Positions 748 to 7,670 of a DNA stretch of 64,000 nt are shown piece after piece; position 1 is the stretch's first letter, and each line of letters begins with the position of its first letter. The DNA is from an uncultured Clostridia bacterium. Lineage in GTDB: Bacteria > Bacillota > Clostridia > Lachnospirales > CAG-274. A model generated the notes under the pieces. The model saw only the letters and a list, made by a program, of their open reading frames with translations, ran no database searches and was not told where the DNA came from. Position numbers and translations under genes: made by a program. The stretch is from assembly GCA_947630475.1 (NCBI GenBank), contig CANRHR010000005.1, forward strand, positions 107,026 through 171,025, in the 5' to 3' direction.

Positions 748-1446
748 TCACCTTACGGTAAGGTTAGGTGTTATTTTAAATACAGGCGTTATTTTTATTT
801 GATCTGATTCAAACCAATCAGCATTTGGATTAGCTGTTCCTATAACCCTAACGGGTGCAAACTCTCCGGGCTTTACCGTTACCTTTGGGCTGTCGTAAAG
901 CTTTTTATATACGGGATATTCGGCATCGGGATTATAATCCTCCGATGTTTTGCCTATCAATATTTCATCGGCTATAGGTGATGAAAACAGAGCATTAAAA
1001 TTTGCTTCGCTTAATCCCGTTGGATCTGAGGTCATGGAGCTGCCCACTTGCAGGGCAAAATACGCCTGTCTTGTTTTTGTCACTTGGTATGCCGATGCAG
1101 CTACTCTTTTGCTTTGTATAAGGATACTCTTTTGAGCGTCTATTGTAAGACTGTAGCCTACAAGCCCTACATCATAGGCAATAGAGGTATCGGAGCCATC
1201 AGGCTCATGTGTATTTTTAATAGCCTGAGGGTTATCGGCAGAGGTTATTTGCTCTTCGTTTCCATAGGGCTTCATAACAAATATACCTGTCGGGACTTCT
1301 ATATTTGTAAACTCTTCATCTCCCGACTGTATGCTGCCCTCCATACTGAAGCAGCCCAACTGAGCGCTATAGCAGGCCATAGCCCCAAGAAGGGTAATTG
1401 CAGCCGCTATACTTAAGGCTAAAAGGCATTTTATCCTTTTTTTCAT
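748..1446 (-). CDS. Secreted protein with C-terminal NPNAxW motif (paralogue 1), function unknown
   Basis: 232 residues. The N-terminus is a clear signal peptide: MKKR, then the hydrophobic stretch CLLALSIAAAITLLGAMA, with cleavage probably near CYSAQ. The mature part begins with a GSIQSG segment and IEVPTGIFVMKPYG. It ends with PVRVIGTANPNADW, then D-x-IKITPVFKITP. The same ending occurs in the next gene and, more weakly, in the large repeat protein. The ATG at 1446 has a GGGAGGG ribosome site. No sortase motif or further membrane segment is visible, so it is probably released or held in a surface assembly. It is last in the cluster downstream of flagellin. I do not recognise the family; a structural surface protein is an inference. 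Confidence 0.8.
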   Translation of the reverse strand: MKKRIKCLLALSIAAAITLLGAMACYSAQLGCFSMEGSIQSGDEEFTNIEVPTGIFVMKPYGNEEQITSADNPQAIKNTHEPDGSDTSIAYDVGLVGYSLTIDAQKSILIQSKRVAASAYQVTKTRQAYFALQVGSSMTSDPTGLSEANFNALFSSPIADEILIGKTSEDYNPDAEYPVYKKLYDSPKVTVKPGEFAPVRVIGTANPNADWFESDQIKITPVFKITPNLTVR

Positions 1447-1463
1447 ACTAACCCTCCCTTTTA

Positions 1464-1504
1464 ATAAAAAGGGTGCAAACCGTATAATACAATCTGCACC
1501 CTTG
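1464..1504 (-). terminator. Intrinsic terminator after secreted paralogue 2
   Basis: Minus strand stem AAGGGTGCA...TGCACCCTT followed by TTTTATT. It lies between the genes ending at 1566 and starting at 1446. Confidence 0.85.
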
Positions 1505-1565
1505 TGTTTAAGCTATATTAGGGTTGAATTTAAATTATTTCTATAATCAAGCGTCAGCAGATACA

Positions 1566-2351
1566 TCAGTCAGCAGATACATCAGGAGTAAGCTTGTAAA
1601 CAGGAACAACCTTTATAGCATCGCCTGTAGTCCATGTAGCGTTAGGATTCATAGTGCCTACAACTCTTACAGCTACTACGCCGCCTTCGCAGGTATCTTC
1701 AACTTTTGAAGCTGTAGAAAGAGTATCTCCCTGATCTGTATCTTTAGCCATAGTTATTTCAGTAGCAGTAGTGTCTGTAAGCTTTGTATAAGTGCTTTCA
1801 GCCTCTCCGGTATAGGCATCGCTTGCCTTAGTTAAATCAACTTTCTTAGCATCATCAAACTTTGCCTTAAGGGCACTAATATCTGCAACAATCATTGCTT
1901 TATCTTCGGAATTCTTATGAACATCGCTTAAAGCATTATATTTTCCAAGATCTGCCAATTGAATCTGCAATGAAACCTCTTTCTTAGTGCTTGTGCCGTA
2001 TTTGTCCATATCTGTGTAAGTTGTTTTTAATGAAATAGGGTTAAGCTCATCAGCTGATGTAAGAGTAGCAGTATAGCCTGCAACACAAACTTTCATCTTA
2101 GCATCTCTTGAGGTGTTTACAAACATAGGAATCTCGCCGGTTGATGCATCCAAAACTGTATCAATCTGAGTTGCGGCAAAAGGCTTAATCTGAAGCTTTC
2201 CTGTTGCAGGAAGCTTGATATTAACCTGCGCATCGTCTGCGGCGATAGAACCGCTGAAGTCAGTAACATCAGCGAAGCTTGCTGATGAAGCAGAGATTGC
2301 CATACCTATTGCTAAAGCAAAGCCTAATAATCCTCTTAAATTTTTTTTCAT
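1566..2351 (-). CDS. Secreted protein with C-terminal NPNAxW motif (paralogue 2), function unknown
   Basis: 261 residues from the ATG at 2351, which has GGAGG at the right distance; an in-frame ATG five codons earlier lacks one. Signal peptide MKKNLRGLLGFALAIGMAIS with cleavage near SASFA. The mature protein starts FSGSIAADDAQVNIKLPATG and LQIKPFA, matching the layout of paralogue 1, and ends VRVVGTMNPNATW, GDAIKVVPVYKLTP. The middle is rich in Asp, Lys and Thr and has no recognised fold. The last codons and the stop sit in a tandem copy of a 16-base unit (about 1551-1582), so the C-terminus has been locally duplicated. Function unknown; probably an extracellular structural protein. Confidence 0.82.
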   Translation of the reverse strand: MKKNLRGLLGFALAIGMAISASSASFADVTDFSGSIAADDAQVNIKLPATGKLQIKPFAATQIDTVLDASTGEIPMFVNTSRDAKMKVCVAGYTATLTSADELNPISLKTTYTDMDKYGTSTKKEVSLQIQLADLGKYNALSDVHKNSEDKAMIVADISALKAKFDDAKKVDLTKASDAYTGEAESTYTKLTDTTATEITMAKDTDQGDTLSTASKVEDTCEGGVVAVRVVGTMNPNATWTTGDAIKVVPVYKLTPDVSAD

Positions 2352-2411
2352 AATAAAAACCTCCATTTTTTCATTATTTTTTGTTGTAAATTTATGATAA
2401 AATCAAAAATT

Positions 2412-2987
2412 TCATTTCCTATCTGCAGCGTAAAAGACTTCCATATCCGTATTTAAGCCTGTAGAGCCTATATCAGTCCTATTATCTTTACCGCTTATCG
2501 CTGTAAAAATAACATTAACCGAATATGTCCCCGGCTCAAGCTCTTCATTTATGGGGATAGTTTCTATCTTTCCGCCCGGCGGAACAAGACCCGATGTATA
2601 AAGATCGGTGGTTTTGTCGTCTTCCACCAATACAAATTTTACGATGTATTGAAAATCATTGTCGTTTTGTACATTGACTCTTGCTATCCTGCTGCCGTCT
2701 TCTGTGATAGCACAGCTTATGCGCTGGTTCATATGCACCCCTATAGAGGATACCATATCTTTCATATACTCTTCGGCAGATTCATCATCAAAAAAGACAT
2801 TCGGTTCTTCCTTTATACCTGAATCCGCCTTGATTTCGTTTATATAATTCTTAAGGTATATACCGCCGCATACTAAAGCGCCGAGAATAACAACCGCCAA
2901 TACAACAATAATCACTTTAAAGCTTAATTTTTTCTTTTTTGTTTCCGGTAATTTCGTTTCCTTCTCTGAGATGTTGTTATCATCCAT
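2412..2987 (-). CDS. Membrane-anchored extracytoplasmic protein, function unknown
   Basis: 191 residues. A charged cytoplasmic stretch (1-22, EKETKLPETKKKK) precedes one membrane helix (about 23-46, VIIVVLAVVILGALVCGGIYL). An outward-facing domain follows. Its second half reads like a beta-sandwich: YIVKFVLVEDDK, LVPPGGKIETIPI and LEPGTYSVNVIF. No enzyme motif is visible. It sits between the large repeat protein and the two secreted paralogues, all on the same strand, so it may anchor or help assemble the secreted products; that is inference from position. Start ATG at 2987 with AGAGG upstream. Confidence 0.75.
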   Translation of the reverse strand: MDDNNISEKETKLPETKKKKLSFKVIIVVLAVVILGALVCGGIYLKNYINEIKADSGIKEEPNVFFDDESAEEYMKDMVSSIGVHMNQRISCAITEDGSRIARVNVQNDNDFQYIVKFVLVEDDKTTDLYTSGLVPPGGKIETIPINEELEPGTYSVNVIFTAISGKDNRTDIGSTGLNTDMEVFYAADRK

Positions 2988-3016
2988 AAGTAAACCTCTT
3001 AACCATCAGATAAATT

Positions 3017-3260
3017 TTATAATGAGCCGCTGTCAGAGCTGCTTGTATCTGAGCCGCTGTCTGAGCTGCTTGTATCCGAACTGCTGTCGGAGCTGCTTGT
3101 ATCCGAACTGCTGTCGGAGCTGCTTGTATCTGAGCTGCTGTCAGAACTGCTTGTATCTGAGCCGCTGTCGGAGCTGCTTGTATCTGAGCTGCTTGTATCC
3201 GAACTGCTGTCAGAACTGCTTGTATCTGAGCTGCTGTCAGAACTGCTTGTATCTGAATTA
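3017..3260 (-). repeat. Ser-Asp repeat tract in the large secreted protein
   Basis: Short tandem units coding SDTSSSDS and SDSSSDTS variants. On the plus strand they appear as repeated GAGCTGCTTGTATC blocks. Such a tract is prone to length change. Confidence 0.9.
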
Positions 3261-4699
3261 CTTTCGGAATCGGTTGTATCAGTTAAAACATCTGAATTAT
3301 TATCTTCATCAGATGAATCAGCCTTTTCAGCTTCATCAATGGAAGAATCAGAGTCTTTAACAGAACTTTCGGAATCGGTTGTATCACTTAAAACATCTGA
3401 ATTATTATCTTCATCAGATGAACCAGCCTTTTCAGCTTCATCAATGGAAGAATCAGAATCTTTAACAGAATTTTCGGAATCGGTTGTATCACTTAAAACA
3501 TCTGAATTATTATCTTTATCAGATGAATCAGCCTTTTCAGCTTCATCAATGGAAGAATCAGAATCTTTAACAGAACTTTCGGAATCGGTTGTATCAGTTA
3601 AAACATCTGAATTATTATCTTTATCAGATGAACCGACCTTTTCAGCTTCATCAATGGAAGAATCAGAGTCTTTAACAGAATTTTCGGAATCGGTTGTATC
3701 AGTTAAAACATCTGAATTATTATCTTCATCAGATGAACCGGCCTTTTCAGCTTCATTATCGGAAGAATCAGCTTTATTTGCTTCTTCTGAGCCGCCTGCC
3801 GGAATATTTTCAACAGCATTTTCAAGAACTGTTTCTTCGGCAATTTCTTCAATTTCTTTGGGCTCTTCCTCTATCGGTTCTTCAATAATAGGCTCATCGA
3901 TAGGTGCGCCAATAGGTGCGCCGCCCACAAATTCCATACTCAGATTTAAGCTGTCGCCTGTAAGCCATTGAGCCTTTGGATTCAGCTCACCGCAAAACTT
4001 AAGCGAAATCTCTTCGTTTGGTTCAAGCTCTGCTATCTCTGTTTTTTCCTCCCCATAGACAAGATATTTTTCACCTGTCAAGGGGTTTATTATATGAACA
4101 AACGCAGCTTTACTCTCACCAAAGTCATTAGAGATAACTGAGCTGTCACAAAGCATTATATCAGAATTTTTTTTACCCTTTAAGGCAAAATAAACTTTAC
4201 GTTTTGAATCTGATTCGTTTTTTATAATAAACTCATTGCTTGAGATTTGACCCTCATTTTCCAAATTTTCAAACGGCGTGAGGGAAAGGCTTCCGCCTCC
4301 GCTTACTCTTATGCCATCGTCGGCATCGGCAGGTTCATTGTTTAAGCTTTGAGCCGTGTTTTCCGGATTTTCAGCCGACGTATTGGAAAGACTCTCATTT
4401 TCGCTTGATTTTATGCCGTTGTCGGCATCGGCAGGTTCATTGTTTAAGCTTTGAGCCGTGTTTTCCGGATTTTCAGCCGACGTATTGGAAAGACTCCCAT
4501 TTTCGCTTGATTTTATGCCGTTGTCGGCATCGGCAGGTTCATTGTTTAAGCTTTGAGCCGTGTTTTCCGGATTTTCAGCCGACATATTAAAAAGACTCTC
4601 ATCTCCGTTTATTTTTATGCCGTCATCGGTATCGGCAAACACAGGAGCTGTAAGGCTGAGAATACTCATTACGGATACCATAAAAACAAATCTTTTCAA
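3017..4699 (-). CDS. Large secreted acidic protein with N-terminal 34-residue repeats and C-terminal Ser-Asp repeats
   Basis: About 560 residues. I start it at the TTG at 4699: GGGGG lies about 8 bases upstream and the product begins MKRFVFMVSVMSILSLTA-PVFA, a textbook signal peptide. A longer reading from 4777 would bury this peptide. Order after cleavage: about 3.3 copies of a 34-residue unit containing SAENPENTAQSLNNEPADAD; a globular part (about 120-270) ending LKFCGELNPKAQWLTGD, which echoes the motif of the two secreted paralogues; a Glu/Pro linker; five copies of a 35-residue acidic unit with VLTDTTDSENSVKDSD; and about 80 residues of (SD/TSSSDS) repeats. No LPxTG anchor. It resembles Ser-Asp stalks of surface adhesins in composition only. 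It directly follows flagellin (90 bases), with no strong terminator between. Confidence 0.85.
   Translation of the reverse strand: MKRFVFMVSVMSILSLTAPVFADTDDGIKINGDESLFNMSAENPENTAQSLNNEPADADNGIKSSENGSLSNTSAENPENTAQSLNNEPADADNGIKSSENESLSNTSAENPENTAQSLNNEPADADDGIRVSGGGSLSLTPFENLENEGQISSNEFIIKNESDSKRKVYFALKGKKNSDIMLCDSSVISNDFGESKAAFVHIINPLTGEKYLVYGEEKTEIAELEPNEEISLKFCGELNPKAQWLTGDSLNLSMEFVGGAPIGAPIDEPIIEEPIEEEPKEIEEIAEETVLENAVENIPAGGSEEANKADSSDNEAEKAGSSDEDNNSDVLTDTTDSENSVKDSDSSIDEAEKVGSSDKDNNSDVLTDTTDSESSVKDSDSSIDEAEKADSSDKDNNSDVLSDTTDSENSVKDSDSSIDEAEKAGSSDEDNNSDVLSDTTDSESSVKDSDSSIDEAEKADSSDEDNNSDVLTDTTDSESNSDTSSSDSSSDTSSSDSSSDTSSSDTSSSDSGSDTSSSDSSSDTSSSDSSSDTSSSDSSSDTSSSDSGSDTSSSDSGSL
3260..3770 (-). 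repeat. 105-bp tandem repeat (35-residue acidic unit, about five copies)
   Basis: Near-identical blocks recur every 105 bases. Examples are the plus-strand word TCTTTAACAGAA near 3355, 3460, 3565 and 3670. Differences between copies are mostly single bases. Confidence 0.9.
4310..4625 (-). repeat. 102-bp tandem repeat (34-residue unit, about three copies)
   Basis: The plus-strand word GGCATCGGCAGGTTCATTG recurs with a 102-base period at about 4322, 4424 and 4526, with almost perfect identity between copies. Confidence 0.9.
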
Positions 4700-4788
4700 A
4701 GCATCTACCCCCTTGGCCAAAATGCCTGTATTACTCCTGTCTGTTAAGCCCATCTCCCCAAAAGAGGAGAAAGGCAAGCTTTAAATTA

Positions 4789-6123
4789 TCAGCCTAAAAG
4801 CTGTAAGATATTCTGAGGAGCTTGGTTAGCCTGAGCAAGCATAGCAACTGCAGCCTGATTGATAACGTTAGCTGCTGTAAGGTTAGTCATTTCCTTAGCC
4901 ATATCAGCATCTTCAATTCTGGAATTTGCTTGATTCAAGTTTTCGCTTGATACCTGAAGGTTGTTAGCTGTGTATTCAAGTCTGTTTTGAATAGCACCAA
5001 GTTTTGAAACTTGTGATGTAACAACATCAAGGCCTGAATCAATAACGTCCAAAACAGCGGCAATATCATCTGCTGTAGAGGCATCGTTACGCAAAACATC
5101 TGATACAGCGCCTTGTGCATTTACAATGTTTCCTTCTTTATCAAGCTTCTGGAACAACTCATCGGCTGTAACAGACGCAAGATTCATAGTGATAGACTGC
5201 CTTGTCTGCTTAGCATCGTCAGATCTGTTGTTAGCGCCTACTTGGAATGTAAGAGAACTCTTATCATATAACAACTCATCTTTATTGTTTTTTAATAACG
5301 TATCAAGATCGGCTGCTCCAGTTGTTAAACTAAAATCCGCACTGTTAATACCGTATACTTTGCCGTCTCCTCCCTTAAAGTAAAGAACGCCGTCTTCACT
5401 TACTTTAAGGTCGTTAGATGTAAGAACCTTTATATCATCACTAAGATTACCATCAGGGTCATCAAGATAGCCTGCCAAAGTAGCCACATCTGTCACTTCA
5501 ACAACACCTCTTGAGTTAACGGTATAGAAACTTTCACCACCATCTAAGGATACAGCTTTGCCGCCTGTAAGTGTCTTACTGGCGCCTGAGGTAGACTCTT
5601 TTACAACTGTAGCAATATCTACTTGAGTAACGTTTGTAGCAACTGCCTTGCCGTCAACATCTACAGCATTAGCGCCTACAGCGTAATCACCTGTAGTAAG
5701 AACCTTTGTGTTGAACTCGGTTCTTCCTGCCATGTTAGTGATTTCTTCAAGGAGCTGATCAACTTCGTCAGCCATCTTAGCACGGTCGCTTGCTTCGCCG
5801 CCTGTGTTGGTATCTGTTGAAGCCTGAACGGTAAGTTCTCTGATTCTCTTAACCATGTTGTTGATTTCGGAAAGAGAACCTTCAGCTGTCTGAATAAGAG
5901 ATGTAGCATCCTGTGTATTTTTGTATGCCATATCAAGACCCATAATCTGAGCTTTCATCTTTGTGCTGATAGCAAGACCTGCTGCGTCATCGGCTGCAGA
6001 GTTGATTTTTTTACCGCTTGAAAGTCTTCTGCTTGCCTTATCCTGTCTTGAGCCAACGCCTGTTAAATTTCTGTGTGAATTTAAAGCTCTTACGTTTGTG
6101 TTAATTACTGTTGAACTACTCAT
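4789..6123 (-). CDS. hag: Flagellin
   Basis: 444 residues from the ATG at 6123, which has GGAGGG just upstream; the longer reading from 6153 has no ribosome site. The N-terminal D0/D1 region (about 1-140) shows SSSTVINTNVRALNSHRNL, ASRRLSSGKKINSAADDAAG and IRELTVQAS. The central 140-340 region is variable. The C-terminal D1/D0 region (about 345-444) ends with ANVINQAAVAMLAQANQ and NILQLLG. It polymerises outside the cell into the flagellar filament after export by the flagellar secretion system; there is no signal peptide, as expected. csrA lies 107 bases upstream in the same direction. The leader carries CsrA-type GGA sites, and an invertible segment lies further upstream. Confidence 0.97.
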   Translation of the reverse strand: MSSSTVINTNVRALNSHRNLTGVGSRQDKASRRLSSGKKINSAADDAAGLAISTKMKAQIMGLDMAYKNTQDATSLIQTAEGSLSEINNMVKRIRELTVQASTDTNTGGEASDRAKMADEVDQLLEEITNMAGRTEFNTKVLTTGDYAVGANAVDVDGKAVATNVTQVDIATVVKESTSGASKTLTGGKAVSLDGGESFYTVNSRGVVEVTDVATLAGYLDDPDGNLSDDIKVLTSNDLKVSEDGVLYFKGGDGKVYGINSADFSLTTGAADLDTLLKNNKDELLYDKSSLTFQVGANNRSDDAKQTRQSITMNLASVTADELFQKLDKEGNIVNAQGAVSDVLRNDASTADDIAAVLDVIDSGLDVVTSQVSKLGAIQNRLEYTANNLQVSSENLNQANSRIEDADMAKEMTNLTAANVINQAAVAMLAQANQAPQNILQLLG

Positions 6124-6230
6124 AATAAATCCCTCCGTTGATTTTTTTGCCACAAATCCATTTGTGGTTTGTTTTTAATTTTTTTATAATAAATCTTCTC
6201 CGCCCTAGCCGAAGAAGAAGTATTAACAAA
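6124..6230 (-). promoter_or_regulatory. Flagellin leader with two CsrA-type binding sites
   Basis: A perfect 7-bp hairpin CCACAAA/TTTGTGG (6150-6167) displays TGGA in a 4-base loop, the classic CsrA target. A second GGA lies in the ribosome site ACGGAGGGA (6132-6139). A further GGA occurs near 6199-6203 within a possible CTTCT/AGAAG stem. The two-site arrangement, upstream hairpin plus site over the Shine-Dalgarno, matches the Bacillus subtilis hag leader, where CsrA blocks translation. No clear flagellar-sigma promoter was seen here, so the transcript probably starts upstream of csrA. Confidence 0.75.
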
Positions 6231-6473
6231 TTACTTCTTTGAATACTTTCCTTTTAACCTTCTGGCTTTTTCAAGCTCCGGCATAAAAGAAATATCATCT
6301 TTGGCTTTAGCCTCCAAATTTCTTTCATAAACCTTAGATCTGGTTATTGGAATTTCTTTTGGCGCCTCTATCGAAAGGCTGATACTGTGGGAGCGAACAT
6401 TATTTGTGTATTTAACAAAAATGTTTTCGCCTATCTTGATATATTCACCTTCCTTGACTGTAACTGTAAGCAT
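6231..6473 (-). CDS. csrA: Carbon storage regulator CsrA (translational regulator)
   Basis: 80 residues. The family pattern is followed throughout: MLTVTVKEGEYIKIGENIFVK, then ISLSIEAPKEIPITRSKVYE, with the conserved Arg of the RNA-binding face at about position 45. CsrA dimers bind GGA motifs in RNA hairpin loops and usually block translation. The obvious target is flagellin immediately downstream. The C-terminal tail (about 55-80, basic) is longer than in E. coli CsrA. In most Gram-positive genomes the antagonist gene fliW is adjacent; none is visible here. The start at 6473 has an AAGGAGG ribosome site. Flagellin and its repressor would share one transcript. Confidence 0.95.
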   Translation of the reverse strand: MLTVTVKEGEYIKIGENIFVKYTNNVRSHSISLSIEAPKEIPITRSKVYERNLEAKAKDDISFMPELEKARRLKGKYSKK

Positions 6474-6561: not shown

Positions 6562-6594
6562 AAATGTAACAATTTAATGAGATTGTTACATTTT
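6562..6594 (+). repeat. Left inverted repeat of the switch (recombinase core site)
   Basis: Arms AAATGTAACAAT (6562-6573) and ATTGTTACATTT (6582-6593) flank core TTAATGAG (6574-6581). It is identical over 33 bases to the reverse complement of 7386-7418. Flanking bases on both sides differ, so identity ends sharply. Confidence 0.95.
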
Positions 6595-6608
6595 ATCTTA
6601 CACTTTAT

Positions 6609-6634
6609 ATATCGTCACATCAAAAAAAAACTTA
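6609..6634 (-). promoter_or_regulatory. Flagellar-sigma (SigD/FliA-type) promoter inside the invertible segment
   Basis: Minus strand TAAG (6631-6634), 14-base spacer, GACGATAT (6609-6616). The consensus is TAAA, 14-16 bases, GCCGATAT, so the -10 matches 7 of 8 and the -35 matches 3 of 4. Transcription would start near 6602, cross the left inverted repeat and reach csrA. The spacer contains nine consecutive T (A on the plus strand, 6622-6630), a tract that could also vary in length. Confidence 0.7.
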
Positions 6635-6776
6635 ACCCCCAAATTTAAAAAATTTTTAAAAATTTTTCCCATCACAAAAAAGACAGAGCAGCAACCCTAT
6701 CTTGAATAATACCATAGATTTAAAAATTTAATACTAACTGAGATTGTTTAAGGAATAATAAGTTAAATTTGTTTGG

Positions 6777-7364
6777 CTATATCACAAGCTCCAAGAATAT
6801 TTTGTCTTTTTCGTCCTGATCTATACCCACATATCGACGTGTTACGGCAAATGACGAATGATTAAAAAGCTCCATCAGCATCGCTGGCGAAACACCCGAT
6901 TTATAGGCGTTATATCCAAATGTTTTCCTTAATGAATGGCAGGAAATATTGCCGTCTATATTTAAAAATTTTGCTGCGGATTTAATTATTCTGTACATCT
7001 GGATACGGCTTATAGCCTTGTTCTTACCCTTTTGGCTCTTAAAAAGCACATCGTCCGGCGAAACTGCGCCCAGAAATTTCATAAGCAGTGAAAGGCTTTC
7101 AATTATAGCTCTGTTCATACGAATTTTAGTTAACTTTTTTGTCTTTTTTTCAATCAGCGTAATGTGTGATCTAAATCTTTTCATCTCAAAATCATAAACA
7201 TCATTCCACACAAGCGAAAGTATATCGCTGCATCTTAACGCAGTGTTCAAGCCTATAACTATAAGGGCATAATTGCGCATTTTACCGCTCTGCTGCCCCT
7301 TTTGCATAAAGTAAAGCTTAAGTTTCATTACATCGCTGGCTTTTCTCATCGGATCTGTTCTCAT
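6777..7364 (-). CDS. Small tyrosine site-specific recombinase (FimB/FimE size), probable invertase of the switch
   Basis: 195 residues from the ATG at 7364, which has AAGGAGG upstream; a longer reading to 7436 would start inside the inverted repeat without a ribosome site. Catalytic residues are all present: R44 in TALRCSDIL, a basic hairpin around K73-K77, H143 and R146 in CHSLRKTFG, H169 in FNHSS, and nucleophile Y178 in TRRYVGI. There is almost no N-terminal arm-binding domain, as in FimB, FimE and similar DNA invertases of about 200 residues. The gene lies wholly between the inverted repeats, 21 bases from the right one, so it would flip with the segment. Its own promoter is not clear. 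The function is an inference from family and position. Confidence 0.9.
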   Translation of the reverse strand: MRTDPMRKASDVMKLKLYFMQKGQQSGKMRNYALIVIGLNTALRCSDILSLVWNDVYDFEMKRFRSHITLIEKKTKKLTKIRMNRAIIESLSLLMKFLGAVSPDDVLFKSQKGKNKAISRIQMYRIIKSAAKFLNIDGNISCHSLRKTFGYNAYKSGVSPAMLMELFNHSSFAVTRRYVGIDQDEKDKIFLELVI

Positions 7365-7385
7365 TTTATATTCCTCCTTGAATTG

Positions 7386-7418
7386 AAAATGTAACAATCT
7401 CATTAAATTGTTACATTT
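7386..7418 (-). repeat. Right inverted repeat of the switch (recombinase core site)
   Basis: Arms AAATGTAACAAT (7387-7398) and ATTGTTACATTT (7407-7418) around core CTCATTAA (7399-7406). This is the exact reverse complement of the left site. Confidence 0.95.
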
Positions 7419-7598
7419 TTTATTTTTGGTTAACAAAAATATTATTATAATTTAATTTTCATAATATTTTTTTCATTTCTGTAAACTTTCCTTATAATTG
7501 AAATTTATTCAAATTTAAATAAAAAATTTTGTTTTCGTGTTTATTTCTATCCATTATTTTACTACGTCAAAAAATTGAAGTATATAAATTTTACACAT

Positions 7599-7630
7599 AA
7601 AAAAGCACTTACCAATGTAAGCGCTTTTTT
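7599..7630. terminator. Bidirectional intrinsic terminator between tsaD and the switch
   Basis: AAAAAAGC-A-CTTAC, loop CAAT, GTAAG-C-GCTTTTTT: T-rich on both strands. It ends tsaD leftward transcription. It would also stop a rightward transcript from the switch promoter in its inverted state before it reached tsaD. Confidence 0.9.
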
Positions 7631-7670
7631 ATCCTAAAATTTTGAAGCGTTAAAAATTTAAACAACAATT

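Follow-up and report, generated by a model that had tools for sequence, protein, structure and literature searches.

Salmonella hin lies within the inverting segment, the RecV recombinase of Clostridioides difficile is encoded away from its switch, and the E. coli recombinase genes fimB and fimE lie outside the fim switch. According to excerpts of two papers, Salmonella inverts a segment of about 1 kb that holds a flagellin promoter (PMC3798978), and the repressor gene fljA is co-transcribed with the flagellin (PMC8306008). In the flagellar (Cdi4) switch of C. difficile, RecV inverts a regulatory segment of flagellar genes, and segments of 154-230 bp are given in the available part of that report (PMC5903667). 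Inversions of about 120 bp with a FliA promoter, located beside hin and upstream of fliC-linked csrA-tldR loci, are described for Oscillibacter and Flavonifractor plautii, with four loci in one Oscillibacter (PMC13418256, 2026, excerpts), so that the concept of a flipping flagellar promoter ahead of csrA in gut bacteria is already in print, together with a serine invertase and TldR. The presence of csrA in the motility loci of Roseburia and Eubacterium is noted in a paper which also cites CsrA control of flagellin, and in the available sections of which the words "recombinase" and "phase" occur 0 times (PMC3720852); the available sections of another paper contain zero mentions of flagell, Lachnospir, Roseburia or csrA (PMC10939037). 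The tyrosine, self-encoded form was not found reported in our literature search, and the 2019 survey of gut invertible promoters may tabulate such loci.

The DNA analysed here, called the window, is a stretch of 64,000 nucleotides from an uncultured Clostridia bacterium. Its 857-bp segment 6562-7418 is very probably a self-contained invertible promoter cassette that toggles a csrA-like gene and a flagellin gene, as judged from the anatomy of the segment and from comparison with its family. The features of the locus are:

6562-6594, no strand: csrA-side recombination site, 12-bp arms AAATGTAACAAT flanking an asymmetric core
7386-7418, no strand: distal recombination site, exact inverse of 6562-6594
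6777-7364, minus strand: tyrosine recombinase, 195 aa, ATG start, intact, within the segment (Pfam PF00589, E 1.2e-25)
6609-6634, minus strand: SigD-type promoter motif TAAG-N14-GACGATAT (motif match), directed toward csrA (ON)
6680-6703, minus strand: predicted terminator in the gap between recombinase and SigD promoter (-11.4 kcal/mol, U tract)
7597-7632, plus strand: terminator hairpin ahead of the convergent tsaD gene, in the path of a flipped transcript (-14.6 kcal/mol, z -8.6, U tract)
7419-7500, minus strand: distal flank, from which the recombinase is presumed to be transcribed in the present orientation
6231-6473, minus strand: csrA-like gene of the unit, 80 aa, Val at position 6 (Pfam CsrA domain)
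6150-6167, minus strand: predicted hairpin presenting AUGGA at its loop, a CsrA-type site of the flagellin leader
6132-6138, minus strand: Shine-Dalgarno sequence ACGGAGG, overlapping a second ANGGA
4789-6123, minus strand: flagellin, 444 aa (profile match)
748-4777, minus strand: four ORFs 3' of the flagellin (586, 191, 266 and 232 aa; ORF list)

An earlier note on this DNA had claimed two identical 33-base sites in opposite orientation, a complete recombinase gene of 195 codons between them and a SigD-type promoter pointing at csrA-flagellin (ON), and all three were found again at the positions listed. The sites form a 33-nt inverted repeat that is 100% complementary, with 791 nt between the copies, and each copy consists of 12-bp arms and 8 nt in the middle; when units are compared, 6-7 bp of the 8-bp core prove invariant. 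In 64 kb, chance would not be expected to yield a perfect 33-nt inverted repeat that also has internally palindromic arms. The residues R44, K74, H143, R146, H169 and Y178 of the recombinase, which we take to be the catalytic positions, are invariant in an alignment of 10 sequences, and the enzyme matches the XerA, XerD and XerH structures by sequence. Against the two tyrosine-type DNA invertase models of NCBIfam, presumably the FimE and FimB types, it scores 39.6 and 31.6 bits, far under the cut-offs of 222 and 221, and membership in these families was rejected. Of the features that define an inverton, four are present: an intact tyrosine recombinase, two inverted sites with identical core, a promoter inside the segment in the form of the SigD-type motif match, and related copies both ways round, the last among paralogous units and between MAGs.

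The SigD motif has 7 exact matches in the 2.18 Mb of the genome to which the window belongs (48 contigs), where a FliA gene was also found. Five of the 7 lie within recombinase-bearing segments (the window, the units U2, U3 and U4 described below, and the left end of contig C23), and the remaining two are placed before a fixed flagellin on contig C10 and on contig C3. With one mismatch at most the motif is little commoner than its control (24 vs 19). The match on C3 (L173 3955-4003; C3:177955-178003) stands outside the flagellin units, ahead of a minus-strand gene that looks like an acyltransferase.

In the proposed mechanism, the encoded tyrosine recombinase would flip the 857-bp segment at its own two sites, the 6-7-bp core being the probable strand-exchange region. 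The promoter directed toward csrA-flagellin, as assembled, would be the ON state and the promoter directed away the OFF state, in which a csrA-flagellin transcript would presumably be absent. The terminator that the earlier note placed in the path of the flipped transcript was recovered, followed by the convergent tsaD gene. Only 21 bp separate the right site from the recombinase start, ribosome site included, so that the recombinase transcript has to start either within the site itself or beyond the segment; with no promoter room inside, the recombinase dose would depend on the flank that the gene faces. The distal flank is resembled at both ends of C23, with 93% and 82%. The terminator-like hairpin at 6680-6703 was absent from the list of the earlier note.

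Like Salmonella hin/fljBA, the locus has a flagellin promoter on a segment that would invert, and a partner regulator gene (PMC3798978, PMC8306008, excerpts). Unlike it, the partner is of the CsrA family, several cassettes occur per genome, and a tyrosine recombinase with cores of 6-7 bp takes the place of Hin, which belongs to the serine recombinases and works with Fis and an enhancer; the serine recombinase of Hin-type flagellar switches is thus lacking here, and the window cassette would work like a Hin-type switch without being a member. With Cdi4/RecV of C. difficile it shares a tyrosine recombinase and a regulatory segment for flagellar genes, predicted here to invert (PMC5903667, excerpt), and differs in carrying the recombinase within the segment and in acting on flagellin instead of the flgB operon. 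The E. coli fim system (FimB/FimE) is similar in having a tyrosine recombinase of about 200 aa and promoter inversion, and different in that its recombinase genes lie outside the switch and that the window protein stays below the NCBIfam invertase cut-offs. As in the csrA-tldR-fliC loci, a FliA-type promoter, here predicted to be invertible, stands before csrA and flagellin, several loci occur per genome, and a CsrA motif lies in a leader stem-loop; those loci, as far as the excerpts describe them, have the serine invertase hin beside inversions of about 120 bp and the RNA-guided TldR (PMC13418256), whereas here a tyrosine recombinase lies inside an 857-bp segment. The TldR/TnpB-type family PF07282 has 0 matches in the genome of the window, which sets the unit apart from the csrA-tldR-fliC module, and when 147 ORFs from 43 linked loci were scanned crudely for CxxC pairs, one in L118 matched. 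The view of the earlier note that the layout was not a described one goes too far, since Salmonella hin-fljBA and the csrA-tldR-fliC loci with hin (PMC13418256, excerpts) precede it; what is new is the tyrosine recombinase inside the segment, a genome with no tldR-type gene, and the breadth of occurrence.

A different arrangement was seen in L066 (870-1704), where csrA-flagellin lies behind an inverted pair of about 180 bp that has unrelated arms and encloses a SigD-like motif, and a 214-aa resolvase-like ORF adjoins the pair (both by eye). This looks like the hin-csrA kind as it is described in excerpts of PMC13418256.

The earlier note treated the switch as a single locus, and the genome of the window (G000) contains four complete units: the window unit, U2 (C5:37 kb), U3 (C6:136 kb) and U4 (C13:3 kb). 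Besides one weak match, the genome has four such recombinases without stops, the one in the window and three paralogues; each of the four is enclosed by a site pair and adjoined by a csrA-like gene and a flagellin. The promoter motif is directed toward csrA in the window unit only and away from it in U2, U3 and U4 (OFF), and the window segment aligns with these three in reverse at about 69-70%. Both ends of C23 (19 kb) consist of the promoter end of such a segment, with the promoter inward and flanks like the window distal flank. The right end overlaps the own left part of C23 by exactly 77 bp, and the left end has exactly 77 bp in common with the window unit, a pattern expected where assembly stops inside almost identical repeats; we read the two ends as two further units, probably OFF and incompletely assembled. 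A flagellin at the end of contig C25, 99% identical to that of the window over 76 bp (start and leader), may belong to one of them. The C10 flagellin has the same SigD motif in a fixed position and a leader with a stem-changed AUGGA hairpin, without csrA and without a site pair. Pairwise identity among the six flagellins (U1-U4, C25 and C10) is 62-94% at the ends and 22-52% in the middles, so that the switch would alter the variable part of the filament; with several cassettes per genome and differing flagellin middles, cells could vary their filament.

Inverted sites with the same core were also seen in C23 at L019 242-267 and 18980-19005, bounding an 18.7-kb stretch with genes that are presumably rpoB and rpoC. 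Recombination between the two C23-end units would invert this stretch.

The recombinase was detected at E up to 1e-15 in 24 of 61 genomes (own included), and csrA as query reached 12 of 392 (own included), the recombinase alignment being the more productive. A scan of a genome collection gave at least 573 confirmed recombinase relatives, of which the best 80 were kept; in 36 of these best 80 the recombinase lies no more than 700 bp from csrA or 1100 bp from flagellin, and 26 of the 36 are titled Lachnospiraceae. Fifteen genomes chosen from these relatives contain 1-6 recombinases each (36 matches, 0 internal stops), and csrA or flagellin adjoins the recombinase in 28 of 30 loci taken from them. 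In L050 the recombinase lies inside the switch, and also in L071 and L074, where it is ahead of csrA; L041 (G058) has the order csrA-csrA-flagellin with the recombinase outside (by eye). An inverted pair wholly upstream of the recombinase, with arms of 16-31 nt and starts 132-175 nt apart, was found in 16 of 28 relative loci scanned, some of which could be chance, and the recombinase is therefore outside the switch there. On the evidence of these sequences the loci form a conserved family of apparently self-encoded flagellin switches that is Hin-like in logic, not in parts.

Recombinase relatives are also carried by viral contigs (L228-L307; best 80 kept, top 46-47% identity), and in L052-L055 they adjoin terminase-looking genes. 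The start of contig L100 (1-137) is the reversed distal flank (915-1051), across a recombinase-bearing segment that is not a csrA unit, as if both inversion junctions had been assembled together.

A comparison of the two site copies within each unit separates core from arms. Over 35 site pairs, mismatches number 0 of 227 within 3 positions of the centre and 56 of 604 further out (Fisher p 1e-8, which is nominal because the loci are related), and most arm mismatches (44 of 56) cluster at 4-7 positions from the centre rather than at the ends of the compared stretch. This count left out L041, L073, L141 and pairs below 20 of 26, and a few sites have a poorly defined centre. Strand exchange by tyrosine recombinases requires a matching overlap, and the identity of the core within units is therefore the mark of a switch that works or did so until recently. 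Cores are equal within a unit and mostly unequal between units, and they differ among themselves in the units of G392, G394, G395 and G396. A core unique to each unit does not hold as a rule, as TATAAT is common to U2 and U3, TAATGA to the window unit and the C23 sites, and TAGATA to L195 and L219 of one genome.

Orientation was scored for 43 distinct linked loci, made up of 4 of the own genome, L041, L071 and L074, and the 36 from the best-80 relatives. These loci contain 44 recombinase matches in stop-free frames of 558-591 nt. An earlier site finder had returned none at 44 of 80 loci, and an ungapped 26-mer search requiring at least 20 of 26 matches was used instead, which left 7 of 43 without a clear pair. 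The state was defined by the direction of the promoter and not by that of the recombinase; in L133, L146, L154 and L158 the promoter motif is at the recombinase start, not its end, and the recombinase gene runs toward csrA. Two loci are ON (the window unit and L134), 30 are OFF, 4 are ambiguous (L114, L141, L142 and L150) and 7 lack clear sites (L113, L110, L115, L119, L129, L131 and L041). L073 was dropped as a duplicate of L041, and the 30 loci from the fifteen chosen genomes, whose places partly overlap, were kept out of the count; among them L196 scored slightly higher for toward than for away. Opposite promoter directions were seen among paralogous units of the own genome and between different MAGs or species. 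L134 (986-1742) matches L136, from a different MAG, in reverse (72.9% over 763), and their flanks match directly (53 bp at 87% and 301 bp at 76%); the core TGGGGGA is common to both, and the two may be orthologues or paralogues. The outcome that the earlier note named as speaking against a switch, one constant orientation with a dead recombinase, was not encountered, as both promoter directions occur among related loci and the recombinase frames are open. On the OFF side of the 30 loci, 24 have a convergent ORF as nearest neighbour, 5 a codirectional one and 1 the contig end, and OFF is therefore mostly without a target.

The hag leader of B. subtilis has a two-site CsrA anatomy. The flagellin leaders analysed here are like those of the CsrA-FliW/hag system in having a hairpin with ANGGA and ANGGA at the Shine-Dalgarno site, and the loci are unlike hag in the extra, divergent csrA ahead of each switching flagellin. 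The ANGGA hairpin is present in 29 of 42 flagellin leaders, against a mean of 0.3 and a maximum of 3 in 300 letter shuffles, and in the register tested the other 13 are without it. A looser count of 36 of 43 (shuffle mean 1.1) took in Shine-Dalgarno hairpins and one duplicate locus, and the stricter count is preferred; the spread of base-pair types over 16 distinct stems is no independent test because the stems were picked for pairing. The combination of hairpin and ANGGA at the Shine-Dalgarno site makes it likely that a CsrA controls flagellin translation. By the logic of B. subtilis hag, the CsrA paralogue of the unit most likely acts on translation of flagellin mRNAs via the leader hairpin and the Shine-Dalgarno site.

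Arg6 and Arg44 of CsrA contact RNA. Arg6 is missing in 40 of 40 unit CsrA proteins examined and present in the CsrA adjoining FliW in the own genome, which encodes FliA, FliW and a canonical CsrA. The window CsrA belongs to the CsrA superfamily (Pfam CsrA domain, 52 bits, cut-off 27) and reaches 37.4 bits on the NCBIfam equivalog TIGR00202, under the cut-off of 70.1, on which the fliW-linked CsrA scores 79.1 bits. The designation of the unit gene as a repressor of flagellin translation in the earlier note cannot be kept as worded in view of the missing Arg6, the score under the NCBIfam cut-off and the fliW-csrA pair elsewhere.

A reading in which the segment is a small mobile element, with a recombinase between terminal inverted repeats that landed by chance before csrA, would fit the basic layout of recombinase and repeats and the occurrence of the recombinase family in viral contigs and next to what look like terminase genes. 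We consider it highly improbable: the repeats are not element ends where the pair lies wholly upstream of the recombinase (16 of 28), cores that are equal within a unit and mostly unequal between units argue against it, a promoter motif is carried and the position before csrA-flagellin recurs, and no target duplication was seen by eye at the window sites. It was rejected on the upstream repeats and the lacking duplication. As ON is rare (2 of 32 scored), the switch may in many loci be locked or turn very slowly, and the strong OFF bias (30 of 32) would suit a switch that has lost its function, leaving csrA-flagellin permanently ON here and the other units permanently OFF. We consider this reading very unlikely, given the open recombinase frames at linked loci, the invariance of the presumed catalytic residues in an alignment of 10 sequences, the identical cores kept within each site pair, and the related switch inverted between the two MAGs of L134 and L136.

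The invertible cassette thus remains the preferred reading, and it can be extended rather than opposed by the idea that its main output is exclusive expression. By analogy with FljA of Salmonella, the CsrA of an active unit could silence other flagellins, those of the other units and the fixed one on C10. One unit ON of four complete units would agree with this, as would the C10 flagellin with the same SigD motif and AUGGA hairpin and without csrA or site pair, and excerpts of PMC13418256 are counted as support; one of four could also arise by chance, the flagellin of the same unit has these leader sites too, which would lead one to expect self-repression as well, and Arg6 is missing in all 40 unit CsrA proteins. 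On balance we regard exclusive expression as a possibility that leans to the doubtful side.

It is tempting to speculate further, tentatively and with slightly more doubt than belief, that gut Clostridia, Lachnospiraceae above all, keep sets of flagellin cassettes that switch themselves, each having a CsrA paralogue and, inside the flipping segment, a tyrosine invertase of its own, mostly OFF and with one variant expressed at a time, so that Hin-type variation would be rebuilt from other parts and would cover the flagellins of a bacterial group targeted by Crohn's disease antibodies. Antibodies to gut flagellins, some of them from Lachnospiraceae, have been studied in that disease (PMC11285207 and other papers, excerpts). 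If the inversion is true, the choice of flagellin in many gut commensals would be a stochastic DNA switch with parts unlike those of Salmonella, and antigen exposure would depend on the switch state, measurable from metagenome reads. The cassette family is also a comparative set for core diversification that keeps neighbouring switches from recombining, and for the question of why a CsrA paralogue accompanies each flagellin.

A stable hairpin with a U-rich tail lies in the gap between csrA and flagellin (6194-6218) and could separate the two genes, as an attenuator or processing site. The four ORFs at 748-4777 possibly share the flagellin transcript. Look-alikes of them follow the C25 flagellin in the same order (L174 6938-10207; by eye), some of the window set have signal-peptide-like starts, and a Pfam scan of six such ORFs, four in the window and two behind the C25 flagellin, gave zero matches. 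In the cultured Eubacterium xylanophilum ATCC 35991 (L141), a recombinase-bearing segment (3871-4719; sites 3871-3895 and 4695-4719) lies between two divergent flagellins with its SigD-type motif facing the right one, and a single promoter would therefore alternate between both.
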